Origin: Verrucomicrobia bacterium LP2A
Lineage (GTDB): Bacteria; Verrucomicrobiota; Verrucomicrobiia; Methylacidiphilales; Methylacidiphilaceae
Reading direction: 5' to 3'
NCBI GenBank assembly: GCA_000526255.1
Contig: JAFS01000002.1
Coordinates: 1,054,001-1,118,000 of the forward strand
Length of the DNA stretch: 64,000 bases
Below, piece by piece: positions 2,604 through 38,483 of the stretch. Every line of letters starts with the position of its first letter. Position 1 is the stretch's first letter. Both the position numbers and the translations under genes were made by a program. Under the pieces are notes generated by a model. The model did no database searches, was not told the origin of the DNA, and saw only the letters and a list, made by a program, of their open reading frames with translations.

Positions 2604-3691
2604 GCACGAAATACGTGGTGGAGGAGAGCGGTCGCGAGCGGCAGGGGAAGAGCCGGGAGCCGATCCCTCGGACCTTCGGGTTTCGGATGCCGGCCGAGTG
2701 GGTGCGGCACCGCGCGACCTGGCTGACCTGGCCGCGGGAGGAGGGCATCAGCTTTCCCGGGAAAGAGCAGGCCATGTTCGCCTTCTGGGCCGATCTGGTT
2801 CGGCTTCTTTCATCCGGGGAGCTTGTCCGGATCAACTGTTTTTCGCGCCAGCAGCGGCGATCGATCCAGGAGCTCCTCGAATCGAGGGGCGTTGCGGTCG
2901 GACGGAGGGTCGTTCTCTACGAGATCCCTGCCTACGAGCCCTGGTGTCGTGACCACGGACCGATCTTCGTGCAAAACGGACGGGAGACCGCAATCGTCGA
3001 TTGGGGTTACGATGCCTGGGGGAAGAAGTATCCTCCCTACTCTCTGGACGACCTGGTGCCACAGCGGGTCGCCTCCTTCCTGGGGATGCGCTGCTTCGAG
3101 CCTGGGATCGTCTTGGAAGGAGGAGCGATCGATACCAACGGAGAGGGGCTTTTCCTCGTGGGCACCCGCTGCCTCCTCGATCCAGTACGCAATCCGGGAA
3201 TGACGCGGGAGCGGATGGAACGGGCGCTGCGCGACTATCTCGGTGCGAACCGGATCATCTGGCTCGAAGCGGAAATCGTGGGAGACGACACCGACGGCCA
3301 TGTCGATGAGATCGCCCGTTTCGTCGATCGATCCACCATCGTGGCGGTGCGCGCCCAGGACCCCCAGGATCCAAACCATGCCTCGCTCGAAGGAAACTTC
3401 GCGCGGCTGCTGGCGGAGGCGGAAAGGGGCCCCGCACGCCTGCGCGTGGTCGCGCTTCCGATGCCGTCGGCGATCTACGAAGGGGAGACGAGGCTCCCCG
3501 CGTCCTACGCGAACTTTTACTTCTCCAATGAGGCCCTTCTCTACCCGGCTTTCGGCGATCCCATGGACGCCGTGGCGGGAGAGATCTTGGGAGCGCTCGT
3601 GCGCGACCGTCCGGCGGTCCCCGTGGCCGCTCGCGACCTCGTGTGGGGATTCGGCGGCCTCCACTGCATCACTCAGCAGGAGCCGACATGA
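2600..3691 (+). CDS. aguA: Agmatine deiminase (peptidyl-arginine deiminase fold)
   Basis: Converts agmatine to N-carbamoylputrescine plus ammonia. The 363-residue protein shows the conserved WCRDHGPIFV block, the DTDGHVDEIARF block containing active-site Asp and His, and the C-terminal GGLHCITQQEP block with the nucleophilic Cys. The GTG start at 2600 overlaps the aguB stop by four bases (GTGA), implying translational coupling. With aguB it makes a two-gene agmatine-to-putrescine module; no arginine decarboxylase is visible in the window. Confidence 0.93.
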   Translation: MSTKYVVEESGRERQGKSREPIPRTFGFRMPAEWVRHRATWLTWPREEGISFPGKEQAMFAFWADLVRLLSSGELVRINCFSRQQRRSIQELLESRGVAVGRRVVLYEIPAYEPWCRDHGPIFVQNGRETAIVDWGYDAWGKKYPPYSLDDLVPQRVASFLGMRCFEPGIVLEGGAIDTNGEGLFLVGTRCLLDPVRNPGMTRERMERALRDYLGANRIIWLEAEIVGDDTDGHVDEIARFVDRSTIVAVRAQDPQDPNHASLEGNFARLLAEAERGPARLRVVALPMPSAIYEGETRLPASYANFYFSNEALLYPAFGDPMDAVAGEILGALVRDRPAVPVAARDLVWGFGGLHCITQQEPT

Positions 3692-35043: not shown

Positions 35044-35594
35044 TCACGCATCCATCTTCGGCAGGATCCTCTTCATGAATCCGTCGAACCAGGGAACGGT
35101 GAATGCCGTATCGCCGTGAGCGGGGCTGTAGATCATCCCTTTGGCAATCAGGCGATTTCGCAGCGGCGCTGCCGAGGTAACCGTCATTCTCAGTCGTTCC
35201 GCGATGTCGCCGGAGCGATGAGGACCCGCACCGAGCTCCGCCATGGCACGCAGATAACGCTTCTCGGCACGAGTCAGCCTGTCGAAGCGTACGCGGAAAA
35301 AGCCGTCGTCCAACTCCGCCAACGCCAAGGTTGTCGTGCGGGCAAGGACCTGCCTTCCGGCGCTTCGATCTTCACGCTGGCAAAGCCCCGGGCCTCGGCA
35401 TCGACCTCGATTCGGTTCAGCAGCACCGTCTTGCCGACTCCGCGTAGCCCGTGAAGGATCAAGCTTCGGGCGGAACGGCCAGACCGTATCCGGTCGAGCG
35501 CGATCGCGGCTCGTTCGATCCACGCATCCCGTCCAGCTAGTTCCGGAGGTGGCGTTCCGGCACCAGGAGCATAAGAATTTTTTCGTGGATCCAT
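35044..35594 (-). pseudogene. AAA-type ATPase gene with a large internal deletion
   Basis: The N-terminal part (from ATG 35594: PGAGTPPPELAGRDAWIERA, then LHGLRGVGKTVLLNRI with Walker A) runs to about 35345. The reading then continues in another frame with the C-terminal part (ALAELDDGFFRVRFDRLTRA, RSGDIAERL, GDTAFTVPWFDGFMKRILP). Full-length members of this ATPase family are about twice as long; the Walker B and sensor region is missing. The remnant is thus an internally deleted and frameshifted gene. Its start codon lies within the target duplication of the IS next to it. Confidence 0.8.
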
Positions 35595-35597
35595 TTA
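35590..35597. repeat. 8-bp target-site duplication, left copy
   Basis: TCCATTTA directly abuts the left end of the IS; the identical octamer is at 38171-38178. Read on the minus strand it is TAAATGGA and contains the ATPase start codon. Confidence 0.9.
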
Positions 35598-35629
35598 GGG
35601 TACTATCGCATTGACTCAGGCAGCCACAA
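35598..35629. repeat. IS terminal inverted repeat, left
   Basis: This 32-bp end includes the tnpB stop codon (35616-35618), so the last four sense codons and the stop of tnpB lie inside the transposase-recognition end. Confidence 0.85.
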
Positions 35630-37178
35630 GGGCTGGAGCATCGGGCGATTTCATGGACGCCTCGCGGCGTTCGGATGACCTCACCACGGGCAACGGCACT
35701 CCACCGAAGTAGGGATTGGTTGATCGTGGGTCGGCGGGGGCACCCCGGCTCCCGGTTCTGCCCAGGCCCAGCGCCCGGACAGGTCGCTCCCCGAACTCGC
35801 GCACGAGCTCGGCAAGGACCGCAGCCTTCCCCTGGAAGAGCCAACCATTGGGGCGCGCACGGCGCGCTTCGATGTTGGCCGCCGCATTGAGGTCGGCGTG
35901 CATTTGGTGACCGCACCAAAGGCAGACGAAGGTCTTCTGGTCGCGGCGGTTCCGCTTGTCCACATATCCGCAACCGGAACATGCCTGAGAGGTGTATGCG
36001 GCGTTGACCTCGGCGGAGGGGATTCCGAACCGCTCCTCCAGGTCGCGCAACTTCTCCTGGACGATCGAGCGTCCGCAGTTGCGCAGGATCGCGTTGAGCC
36101 GCTTCGAGAGGTCGGGGTGGCGGAAGTCGAGCCGCTCCAGCACCAACTCCTTGGGCTTGCCCTGCTCGACAAGGCGGTTGAGCACGCGGCCGACCTCGGT
36201 GCGAAGGAAGCCGCGCACGTCCTCCACCAGCGCCCGATACCGCTTGCTCTCGCGTGGCCTGAGTCCGGCACGCTGCTGGCTGGCCGCGATCAAGGCAAGC
36301 AGCGCGTCGTACCGCTTGAGCCACTTCAGCCAGCCCTGGCCGAGCAGCCGGCCGTCGGATGTGGCCAAGAGCGTGGACAGCCCAAAATCAAGCGCCAGCG
36401 CGCCGTGGCCGTCGTAGGCGGCGCGGCTTTTGGCGCAGACCTCGCCCATGTCGGTCACCACGCCGAAGCTCAGGCGACCCTCGCGCTCGTTCACCTGGAT
36501 GCCGTTGGTCACGCGGCCAGGACGCTTGGCATGGTAGTCGTAGGTGAGCAGCGGGATGGCGATCTTGCGCCCCTTCTCGAGCGTGGAGAGGCTCACCCAC
36601 CAGCCGACCCTGCCGCCCTGCGTCGCCTTGACGGGGCGGGCGATGCTCCCCGCGCGGTGGTCGAGGCGCATGGAGATGCGCGAGAGGTCCGGGCGGCGAT
36701 GCCGCACCATGCAGTGGCGCATCATGGCGCGCGCCAGCCGTCGCACGGAAACGGGAATCACCTCGCCCGTGTCTCTCCTCTCCACCTCGCTGCGCCGGAA
36801 CCACGCGCCCAGGCCGTTGATGGCGTGGAGTATCTGCTTGGTGGCGGGTGCCAGCGTGCTGTGGTTGACCATGTCTCGAAACTCATTGGCCCGGTTGCGG
36901 ATCCAGCCCTGGAGCTGCCCGACGACCTGCCAGCGGGCCATCTGGACGCGGTTGGCCGCGCCGATGACGGCGGCGAAGGTGACCTTGTCCAGGTCGTGGT
37001 TCTTGTCAAAGCGGCCCGTCTCGAAGAAGAGCCGCCACTCTTCCCGGCCCAGCAGCACCGCGCCCCGGCGGTAGGCTCTGAGCAGCGCGCGCACGGCCGC
37101 CTCTTTGCTGGCCGTCAGGTTCGACGGCAGCAGGTCGGTCCGATGGACGGGCGGATGCTCGGGCTTGGTGCGGGCCAT
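35616..37178 (-). CDS. tnpB: TnpB-like RuvC nuclease (OrfB with zinc ribbon) carried by the IS
   Basis: A 520-residue TnpB-family protein. The RuvC-like nuclease residues are all present: Asp264 in ALALDFGLSTLLATSDG, Glu348 in KELVLERLDF and Asp429 in HADLNAAANIEARR. The four-Cys zinc ribbon is intact (CSGC at 400-403 and CLWC at 419-422). The first 250 residues form a long, divergent N-terminal region; typical TnpB proteins are around 400 residues. Known TnpB proteins are RNA-guided DNA nucleases whose guide RNA usually comes from the 3' end of the gene and the element end. Here the 3' end overlaps the terminal repeat. ATG 37178 overlaps the transposase stop. Confidence 0.9.
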   Translation of the reverse strand: MARTKPEHPPVHRTDLLPSNLTASKEAAVRALLRAYRRGAVLLGREEWRLFFETGRFDKNHDLDKVTFAAVIGAANRVQMARWQVVGQLQGWIRNRANEFRDMVNHSTLAPATKQILHAINGLGAWFRRSEVERRDTGEVIPVSVRRLARAMMRHCMVRHRRPDLSRISMRLDHRAGSIARPVKATQGGRVGWWVSLSTLEKGRKIAIPLLTYDYHAKRPGRVTNGIQVNEREGRLSFGVVTDMGEVCAKSRAAYDGHGALALDFGLSTLLATSDGRLLGQGWLKWLKRYDALLALIAASQQRAGLRPRESKRYRALVEDVRGFLRTEVGRVLNRLVEQGKPKELVLERLDFRHPDLSKRLNAILRNCGRSIVQEKLRDLEERFGIPSAEVNAAYTSQACSGCGYVDKRNRRDQKTFVCLWCGHQMHADLNAAANIEARRARPNGWLFQGKAAVLAELVREFGERPVRALGLGRTGSRGAPADPRSTNPYFGGVPLPVVRSSERREASMKSPDAPALVAA

Positions 37179-38122
37179 CAGGCGGTTCCCGTGAGAAAGC
37201 GGTAAGGCAGCGTGCGCCCAACGCCGCCCCGGACGAGCAGGGCCATGCGCTCCAGGCAGGCGTCGGCCTTGCGGTTCCAGCGGAAGGCGGCTTCGCTGGC
37301 GTAGCATCCGAGCTGCTTGGGCGAGACGAAATGCAAGGCGCCGACCACCGCGCGTCCCAGGAACCCGCTGAAGGATTCGACGCGGTGGCCCGCGGAGTCG
37401 GTGCGGGCGTACTCCCGTTGGCTCTGGTTGACGGACAAGTGGGTGTGTTCCGCGCCCAGGTGCCTGTCGGCCGGGAGACCATCGGTCATCGCCCGCGCAT
37501 CGGCAGAGAGCACGCCGTCCAGCGCCTCGGCGACGGCGGCCTTGCCGTGGGTTGGAATGACCTTGGTTGCCACCTCGCCGCCGCGCTCTGCGGCGACCAG
37601 CAGCAGCGGACGTTTGGTGCCGCGCCCCTCGGGGTTGGGCGGAGGCGGGTCGCAGTCGTCGTCCGCGCGTTCCGGCTTGGGGCGCTTGCGCGGCGGCGCT
37701 CCGGCGTAGGTCTTGTCGATCTCGACGATGTTGGACAGCAATGGGCTATCCTCGGCCATCATGGCGCGGATGCGGTGGCCGAGGTGCCACGCCGTCTGGT
37801 AGGATACGCCCAGCATCTCCGAGAGCTTCACGGCGGAGATGCCCTTGCTCGACGCGACGATCTGGTAGATGGCCTGCGCCCAGGTGAGCATCGGCAGGTG
37901 GGTGCGGTGCATCGGCGTGCCAGCGGTGACCGAGAACTGCCGGTGGCAGGCGGTGCATTGCCAGCGGCGGATCGTCCGCAGCCAGCAGGCGTGGTTGACC
38001 CATCCGCACACCGGGCACATCGGGCCGTCCGGCCAGCGGGCGCGCTCAAACCACGCCCGCGCGGAGTCCTCGTCCGGGAAGAGATCGTGGAAGGCGCGGA
38101 GCATGAGGCCGGTGTCGGTCAT
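37178..38122 (-). CDS. IS1595-family (ISXO2-like) transposase
   Basis: A 314-residue DDE-type transposase. An N-terminal zinc ribbon (CPVCGW near residue 36, CTACHRQFSVTAGTPMHRT near 56) is followed by a helix-turn-helix stretch (SAVKLSEMLGVSYQTAWHLG). The ISXO2-like catalytic domain shows VEIDKTYAG, a second Asp in ARAMTDGLPAD, and a terminal VESFSGFLGRAVVGALH block. The frame is uninterrupted. It is the promoter-proximal gene of the element and is coupled to tnpB by an ATGA overlap. Confidence 0.9.
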   Translation of the reverse strand: MTDTGLMLRAFHDLFPDEDSARAWFERARWPDGPMCPVCGWVNHACWLRTIRRWQCTACHRQFSVTAGTPMHRTHLPMLTWAQAIYQIVASSKGISAVKLSEMLGVSYQTAWHLGHRIRAMMAEDSPLLSNIVEIDKTYAGAPPRKRPKPERADDDCDPPPPNPEGRGTKRPLLLVAAERGGEVATKVIPTHGKAAVAEALDGVLSADARAMTDGLPADRHLGAEHTHLSVNQSQREYARTDSAGHRVESFSGFLGRAVVGALHFVSPKQLGCYASEAAFRWNRKADACLERMALLVRGGVGRTLPYRFLTGTA

Positions 38123-38138
38123 GATCAGAATCTAGGGA

Positions 38139-38170
38139 TTGTGGCGGTCTGCGTCAAGTCGATAGGCCCG
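38139..38170. repeat. IS terminal inverted repeat, right
   Basis: The reverse complement matches the left end at 24 of 32 positions without gaps. It lies 16 bp upstream of the transposase ATG. Confidence 0.85.
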
Positions 38171-38178
38171 TCCATTTA
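38171..38178. repeat. 8-bp target-site duplication, right copy
   Basis: TCCATTTA, identical to 35590-35597. It marks the original position of the ATPase start codon. Confidence 0.9.
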
Positions 38179-38483
38179 TACAAAAGTTAGCAGTATTATC
38201 ATAATGTGATAAGATTAGATAAGAACCGTATAAGGCAACCGAGCGCCCTCATCAAGATCCCTTGTTGAAGGAGGGGAATCTACGGAAGAGGCGCCTCCCG
38301 GCATCGCCAGGAGGAACGGCTACGGTCCGATCGAACGGGCTTCCCCTCTCTTCCTTGCCGTTGCCGCAGACAGGGAGGCACCCTGGCCGCGGCTGCCCGT
38401 GAACGGGGGAACTTCGCTCCAGCCCGAACGGAGCCAGCGCCCGCCGTAATGCAAGCCAGGAAGCCTTTCCAGAGGCTGCCCGG
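38179..38483 (-). promoter_or_regulatory. AT-rich upstream region of the interrupted ATPase gene, then featureless DNA
   Basis: The first 55 bases (38179-38233) are strikingly AT-rich. On the minus strand they include TATGATAAT (GATAAT at 38200-38195), a plausible -10. After the insertion this promoter points into the IS transposase gene. The rest up to the permease stop holds a short frame without recognisable features. Confidence 0.4.

Follow-up and report, generated by a model that had tools for sequence, protein, structure and literature searches.

TnpB, an RNA-guided DNA nuclease of the kind ancestral to CRISPR-Cas12, has been described in bacteria together with Y1 transposases and serine recombinases. 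IS200/IS605 elements such as ISDra2 combine peel-and-paste transposition with retention by TnpB, and in IS605 the motif of the transposase and the target-adjacent motif (TAM) of the nuclease are one same sequence. Here we describe a tnpB gene joined to a DDE transposase, in a complete IS1595-family element of 2573 bp (35598-38170, minus strand, transposase first and then tnpB). It lies in a window, the whole stretch analysed, of 64,000 nucleotides from Verrucomicrobia bacterium LP2A (host genome G000; contig JAFS01000002.1, 1,054,001 to 1,118,000). Sequence comparison indicates that this TnpB-DDE alliance is real and lasting, with a predicted guide scaffold and a TAM-like motif each lying where they would be expected. 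We read it as a TnpB homing or retention system on a DDE transposon, with a probability of about 0.7; the transcription of the RNA, the loading of the guide, the role of RTA as TAM, the cutting and the repair are what we infer.

The guide of IS200/IS605 starts right after the right end of the element and that of IS607 one base later, and the TnpB of ISXfa1 (IS607) depletes GGG (excerpt of PMC10711439). The nearest parallel to the present element is given by Fanzor1 and Fanzor2*, TnpB-type nucleases taken up by eukaryotic cut-and-paste DDE transposons with inverted repeats and target duplications, and Fanzors have altered RuvC signatures, with DPG and a shifted E (same excerpt). TnpB has also been presented as a gene drive on plasmids (excerpt of PMC11870625). 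The features of the window element, in the direction from transposase to tnpB, are as follows.

35598-38170, minus strand: whole IS1595-TnpB element; same ends in copies elsewhere in the genome, perfect 8-bp duplication
38179-38181, minus strand: GTA (RTA motif) immediately preceding the duplicated target, predicted TAM; TA in 21/21 and RTA in 20/21 sites, present as well in the empty allele that sister genome G004 has
38171-38178: target duplication, transposase-side copy; perfect 8-bp match to the tnpB-side copy TCCATTTA
38139-38170, minus strand: left terminal inverted repeat, transposase side; ends common to copies
38129-38157, minus strand: promoter-like TTGACG-17-TAGATT within the left end, 6 nt from the transposase ATG; consensus match only
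37178-38122, minus strand: IS1595 DDE transposase, 314 aa; Pfam and NCBIfam profiles
35616-37178, minus strand: tnpB, 520 aa, its start sharing one base with the transposase stop (TGATG); open reading frame and profile matches
36387-36389, minus strand: RuvC D264 codon; invariant in homologues, aligned to Cas12f
36135-36137, minus strand: RuvC E348 codon; invariant in homologues, aligned to Cas12f
35892-35894, minus strand: RuvC D429 codon; invariant in homologues, aligned to Cas12f
35598-35819, minus strand: predicted omega (guide) RNA scaffold over the tnpB 3' end and the terminal repeat; covarying helices, fewer four-fold-site changes toward the gene 3' end
35598-35629, minus strand: right terminal inverted repeat, tnpB side, with the tnpB stop codon inside; ends common to copies
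35590-35597: target duplication TCCATTTA (plus strand), tnpB-side copy; perfect repeat, predicted guide nt 1-8
35578-35597, minus strand: predicted guide, the target duplication plus the next 12 nt of host DNA, placed by position; 19/20 nt match the G004 empty allele behind GTA

The element is beyond chance, because the same ends recur at other places in the same genome. Its 32-bp terminal inverted repeats are imperfect (24/32 positions match), and 18 of the 21 left ends agree in the position and spacing of their best promoter-like match. The transposase belongs to IS1595, the zinc-ribbon DDE family, by Pfam DDE_Tnp_IS1595 (E 3.3e-19) and NCBIfam transpos_IS1595 (122 bits, cutoff 75), both above cutoff. 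TnpB reaches 58.4 bits with Pfam Cas12f1-like_TNB (cutoff 26.3), and NCBIfam guided_TnpB E 1.1e-21 and 77.6 bits, under the whole-protein cutoff of 100. It has the RuvC D-E-D triad and zinc ribbon of TnpB (OMEGA) proteins: D264, E348, D429 and the zinc-ribbon cysteines do not vary among five homologues, and the three acidic residues align with acidic positions in a solved Cas12f, as judged by eye. A single-sequence structure prediction gave a mean pLDDT (predicted local distance difference test) of 34 and was not used. The ratio of non-synonymous to synonymous substitution rates (dN/dS) of tnpB is 0.15-0.20 in five divergent pairs and 0.17-0.52 in three near-identical pairs (440 codons), which indicates that TnpB is under purifying selection. 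The first-pass annotation had proposed an IS1595 element with 32-bp ends and a perfect 8-bp duplication, an intact TnpB with triad and zinc ribbon, and a tnpB stop within the transposon end, and all of this holds (repeats at 35590-35597 and 38171-38178). Only its four-base ATGA coupling was wrong, the overlap of the two genes being one base.

With IS200/IS605 the element shares a TnpB with RuvC triad and zinc ribbon, a predicted guide-RNA scaffold ending at the right end, and a motif on the left of the site that is missing from the right junction. It differs in its DDE transposase, inverted repeats and 8-bp duplication, where IS605 has a Y1 transposase and resealing excision, and in a predicted guide that begins with the target duplication. 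Neither the Y1 transposase nor the lack of target duplication typical of IS200/IS605 is found in it, nor the serine recombinase beside tnpB of IS607, which also lacks a duplication. The altered RuvC signatures of Fanzors are likewise absent: TnpB has DFG, and E348 aligns with the Cas12f E. The IS1595 family (ISPepr2 and others) has the same transposase domains, inverted repeats with an 8-bp duplication, and similar ends (CGGAACTATC in ISPepr2), whereas the other members examined lack RTA and do not enclose a tnpB.

Insertion sites and the RTA motif

The homing or retention system would work as follows. TnpB, together with the scaffold of its guide RNA, would have been acquired by an IS1595 DDE insertion sequence, with an IS607-like element as the probable source. 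The transposase would insert directly behind (R)TA and duplicate the next 8 bp. Transcription through tnpB would exit the right end into the flank; if the guide starts right after the right end, as in IS200/IS605, it therefore begins with the 8-bp duplication and continues into the following host DNA. The target in the empty site is preceded by the bases ahead of the left duplication, so RTA sits where the TAM would have to be. TnpB would recognise RTA plus the guide match, a combination confined to the uninserted allele, be it on a sister chromosome, on another copy of a plasmid or at the same locus of a recipient. It would cut that allele, and repair templated by the inserted copy would then maintain or spread the element. 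An allele that holds the insertion would be spared: ahead of its right-junction match stands the end of the element itself (...CCC in the window copy), and behind its left-junction RTA the match extends for only 8 bases. The motif of the transposase and the TAM may be one and the same, as in IS605.

Sites were read in the transposase-to-tnpB direction at 21 insertions: seven in G000, six in G004, two on Indioceanicola plasmids, and one each in genomes G006, G002, G094 and G097, a Salipiger plasmid and the proteobacterial genome G823. TA immediately precedes the left duplication in 21/21 sites, and RTA does so in 20/21 (CTA in G823); counted once per genome or plasmid, TA is found in 10/10 and RTA in 9/10. 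At the other 55 upstream positions TA averages 1.7%. No comparable motif lies beyond the right duplication of the sites read, and past the right end the first base is always A or T (20/20). Among the 20 sites with both ends the duplication is perfect in 12, has 1-2 mismatches in 5 and is absent in 3; copies without matching duplications are L095 (G000:C2:209 kb), L096 (G000:C1:1040 kb) and L090 (G006). A 22nd site, later than this count, consists of a left end (L069, G002:C190) and a right end (L091) on two G002 contigs, halves of one insertion by their shared perfect duplication TCTGGAAA, and is preceded by GTA. Right ends alone (L035/L101 in Azospirillum oryzae; the G002 pieces L091, L092 and L094) were not counted as sites, nor was Methylocalor L139, which has a transposase 40% identical and GTA ahead of a predicted duplication but lacks the right end.

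Empty alleles were obtained from sister genomes for eight sites, taking one per site. The predicted 20-nt guide matches 18-20 nt in them, with TA before the match in seven and RTA in six. Among the eight joined sites searched, no spanning match was found for L100, and the L096 site was not resolved in relatives. One of the loci concerned is repeated and tandem-like (G000:C2:1-2517 and G004:C1:845-849 kb), and in G004 L089 is inserted in one of its copies.

Predicted guide RNA and retention of tnpB

The last ~220 nt of tnpB plus the element end appear to form a covarying RNA, as expected for a guide scaffold. The alignment comprised the last 250 nt of 11 divergent copies, taken from 21 right ends; near-identical host copies were omitted, and Salipiger and G823 lay outside the list. 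At the 47 pairs tested, 97.3% of cells are paired, 11 pairs show changes on both sides (5.6 in shuffles) and covariation is 0.229 (0.119 in shuffles), and 0/500 shuffles were as high in any of these three measures. Column slides of 1-3 abolish the signal, a control that is partly built in because the structure came from the same alignment. The strongest helix (columns 70-92) has five of its nine pairs altered on both sides, a GNRA-like hairpin has one such pair, and the closing helix between tnpB coding sequence and terminal repeat has two. Furthermore, in all five divergent pairs the last 210 nt show fewer changes at four-fold sites than the preceding part of the gene (0.21 vs 0.50, 0.17 vs 0.47, 0.08 vs 0.35, 0.22 vs 0.33, 0.24 vs 0.35), a sixth pair being too close. 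In G094 the tnpB frame is broken in the tail, yet the tail nucleotides stay alike. No Rfam family reached a meaningful score, the two chance-level matches being far under their gathering scores.

The gene itself is kept. A scan of 11 genomes or records for transposases of at least 60% identity found no full copy lacking tnpB; two matches at contig edges (G000:C1:1285181 and G002:C190) are uninformative and all others lie in tnpB elements. G000 and G004 together hold 12 copies that have both ends; the 520-aa tnpB frame is present in 12/12 and a full-length transposase frame in 5/12. Six of these copies have lost the middle of the transposase by four different deletions (L095 = L096; L084; L086 = L089; L088), and in all six the leftover transposase frame is open to the tnpB start, for which the chance is (1/3)^4 over the four deletions. 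The Indioceanicola copy L036 likewise has an annotated 137-aa transposase remnant ending at the tnpB start. L086 and L089 share one deletion, yet each has its own perfect duplication; therefore shortened copies move, presumably with transposase supplied in trans. A further derivative (L093, G002:C58, about 2685-3035) spans 351 bp, consists of nothing but the two ends with the RNA part of tnpB between them, and is flanked by a perfect duplication. A stand-alone mobile guide RNA is a possible reading of L093.

The first-pass annotation had expected a guide RNA at the tnpB 3' end, which the covariation supports, and had named copies with the same ends and no tnpB as grounds for refutation; the nearest case is L093, which lacks most of tnpB and keeps its RNA part. 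Its interpretation is thus supported, and it overlooked the one-sided RTA, the deletion derivatives, the distant relatives and the IS607 side of TnpB.

Competing explanations

Several points weigh against a homing or retention system. Resealing of the donor site, as IS605 performs it, is not part of cut-and-paste DDE transposition, so any retention logic would have to depend on sister copies. The number of pair types in the RNA is ordinary (26 vs 23.8, reached by 60/500 shuffles), as is the fold energy of the window RNA alone (z -1.08). At the L099 site, the G004 empty allele has no TA, and two more genomes have no alignable sequence there. TA is also missing from one of the three empty alleles for L089, a paralogue, and the L087 empty allele in G000 has CTA. 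Outside the host genus tnpB decays, being broken in L037 (Indioceanicola plasmid) and frameshifted in the G094 tail. Two further points, the left junction of L095 and the divergence of the control transposases, bear on the best surviving alternative.

This alternative holds that RTA is a target preference of the transposase only, that TnpB is an active nuclease with another TAM or role, and that the overlap is accidental. Compared with G004, L095 has lost 21 bp flush with its left end, which now adjoins a second RTA and 8 bp. This looks like an adjacent deletion made by the transposase, and the apparently re-made junction has RTA even though the guide of L095 belongs to another stretch, which suggests that the transposase itself picks RTA. 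Another IS1595 group has its own taste: G516 (L226/L227) carries two copies of a 2434-bp element with a similar left end GGGGTTTATCCCCTTGAC and other reading frames in place of tnpB, and GCT precedes both duplications. Among IS1595 elements without tnpB, TA stands at the motif position in 0/10 different sites of a first control set and 0/9 sites of a second, although these transposases are only 30-37% identical, so that a differing site taste may explain the result. The first set began with 70 locus entries, some duplicates, of which 11 rows (10 sites, L065 being weak with one mismatch and inverted repeat 17) had readable ends and 59 were dropped. The second comprised three multi-copy elements with duplications in G113 (four sites), G167 (three) and G516 (two), leaving out L216 (no duplication), L215 (partial copy) and the unreadable G438 copies. 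Against mere transposase taste, the motif is strictly one-sided though the DDE reaction yields a symmetric 8-bp stagger, and it is still present where TnpB identity is 44-48% and, reduced to TA, where it is 32%. Moreover, the transposase motif of IS605 is also the TAM, so transposase taste and TAM can both be true. We regard a purely accidental overlap as unlikely, while giving it more weight than any explanation below.

A second proposal, to which we also give a low probability, concerns regulation. In every copy with a duplication, RTA and an 8-nt guide match lie 21 nt before the -35 box of the predicted transposase promoter. A nuclease-active TnpB bound at its own left-end TAM and 8-nt seed, without cutting, might repress this promoter, while the full match in an empty allele would be cut. 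Such a self-repressor would rely on a match too short to cut and would be re-programmed by each new insertion. TldR, a natural TnpB relative, represses with guides as short as 6 nt, according to an excerpt of PMC13418256.

That TnpB is a passenger without guide function in the element seems very improbable. IS1595-family elements can bear unrelated passengers, as the other reading frames of the G516 element illustrate. Such a hitch-hiker agrees poorly with a covarying RNA that runs to the very end of the element, purifying selection on tnpB, a tnpB kept in the host genus while the transposase decays, an RNA-only derivative, and a pairing that spans deep divergence. Least credible of all is that TnpB and its RNA help to choose or prepare the insertion site (RNA- or TAM-guided transposition), as the one-sided motif at the insertion point might suggest, since sites vary by copy, the guide can form only after insertion, and L037 (broken tnpB) and L093 (deleted tnpB) also lie at RTA, although help in trans or later breakage may explain these two.

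Distribution, ancestry and meaning of the pair

The host genome holds six copies with both ends and one fragment at a contig edge. Six copies are found in sister genome G004, one in G006 (TnpB identity 72%), and pieces at contig ends plus one mini-element in G002. Beyond these, close relatives lie on two Indioceanicola plasmids (TnpB identity 76% and 72%), further close relatives in two genomes of the order of A. oryzae (G094 and G097), an IS1595 transposase directly ahead of a TnpB 44-48% identical on a Salipiger plasmid, and a pair with TnpB 32% identical in G823, where the transposase is split over two frames. In A. oryzae itself (L035, 5001-6582) a tnpB 82% identical, with the right end only, lies between infC-like and histidine-kinase-like frames; no transposase was found in the 11.5 kb covered, and it may be a remnant or a domesticated copy. 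Chance capture of tnpB, which the first-pass annotation had raised as an objection to its pairing, is ruled out by recurrence in the host genome, the sister genomes, Azospirillaceae, Salipiger and G823.

TnpB matches were found in 12/60 host relatives at E 0.001 (ordinary TnpBs of other kinds included), in 4/82 genomes of the order of A. oryzae, in 1/385 of its class (A. oryzae itself) and in 3/398 of its phylum (among them G555, without a visible IS1595 partner), no more than three candidates per genome being scored in the class and phylum searches. From these tallies the pair looks rare and patchy. A pattern scan of viral contigs gave no relative, and a phage collection gave distant relatives only. 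The pair is undescribed in the titles and abstract openings of the literature searched, subscription papers being mostly outside coverage.

A tree of 22 rows, which has long branches and leaves six forks open, places the IS1595 TnpBs in a single clade with moderate support (92/92); the TnpB of A. oryzae, where the transposase is lost, belongs to it. The clade sits in a partly unresolved group with IS607 TnpBs of Thermus and Bifidobacterium, its nearest relatives, and solo copies, and a C-terminal NPY(F/L) motif is common to the Thermus and phage (YS40_Isch) relatives and the IS1595 TnpB. One capture from an IS607-like element would be the simplest history. IS607 itself has a serine recombinase in place of the DDE transposase. 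The empty site of the Bifidobacterium relative lacks TA at that position, and the YS40 comparison leaves about 10 bases unresolved. In the same genus as the host, L014 (G001:C124, 327-2586) has a recombinase-like frame and a 555-aa TnpB (30% identical over the matched part), IS607-like by eye.

What appears new here, as far as sequences can tell, is the one-sided RTA, the covarying RNA and a tnpB that outlasts the transposase in the host genus. If the proposed system is true, it would be a stable DDE capture in which the duplicated target is recorded as guide independently of resealing excision. It would also be a bacterial parallel to the Fanzors of eukaryotic DDE transposons, with a TnpB of bacterial type; the RNA scaffold of Fanzor elements is predicted to include the duplication (excerpt of PMC10711439), whereas here the duplication varies by copy and would be guide. 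The proposal predicts a new short TAM, RTA. Finally, the question of what TnpB is for becomes testable, as transposition and nuclease are separable in IS1595-TnpB and natural decayed copies exist with tnpB only or with the guide-RNA part only.

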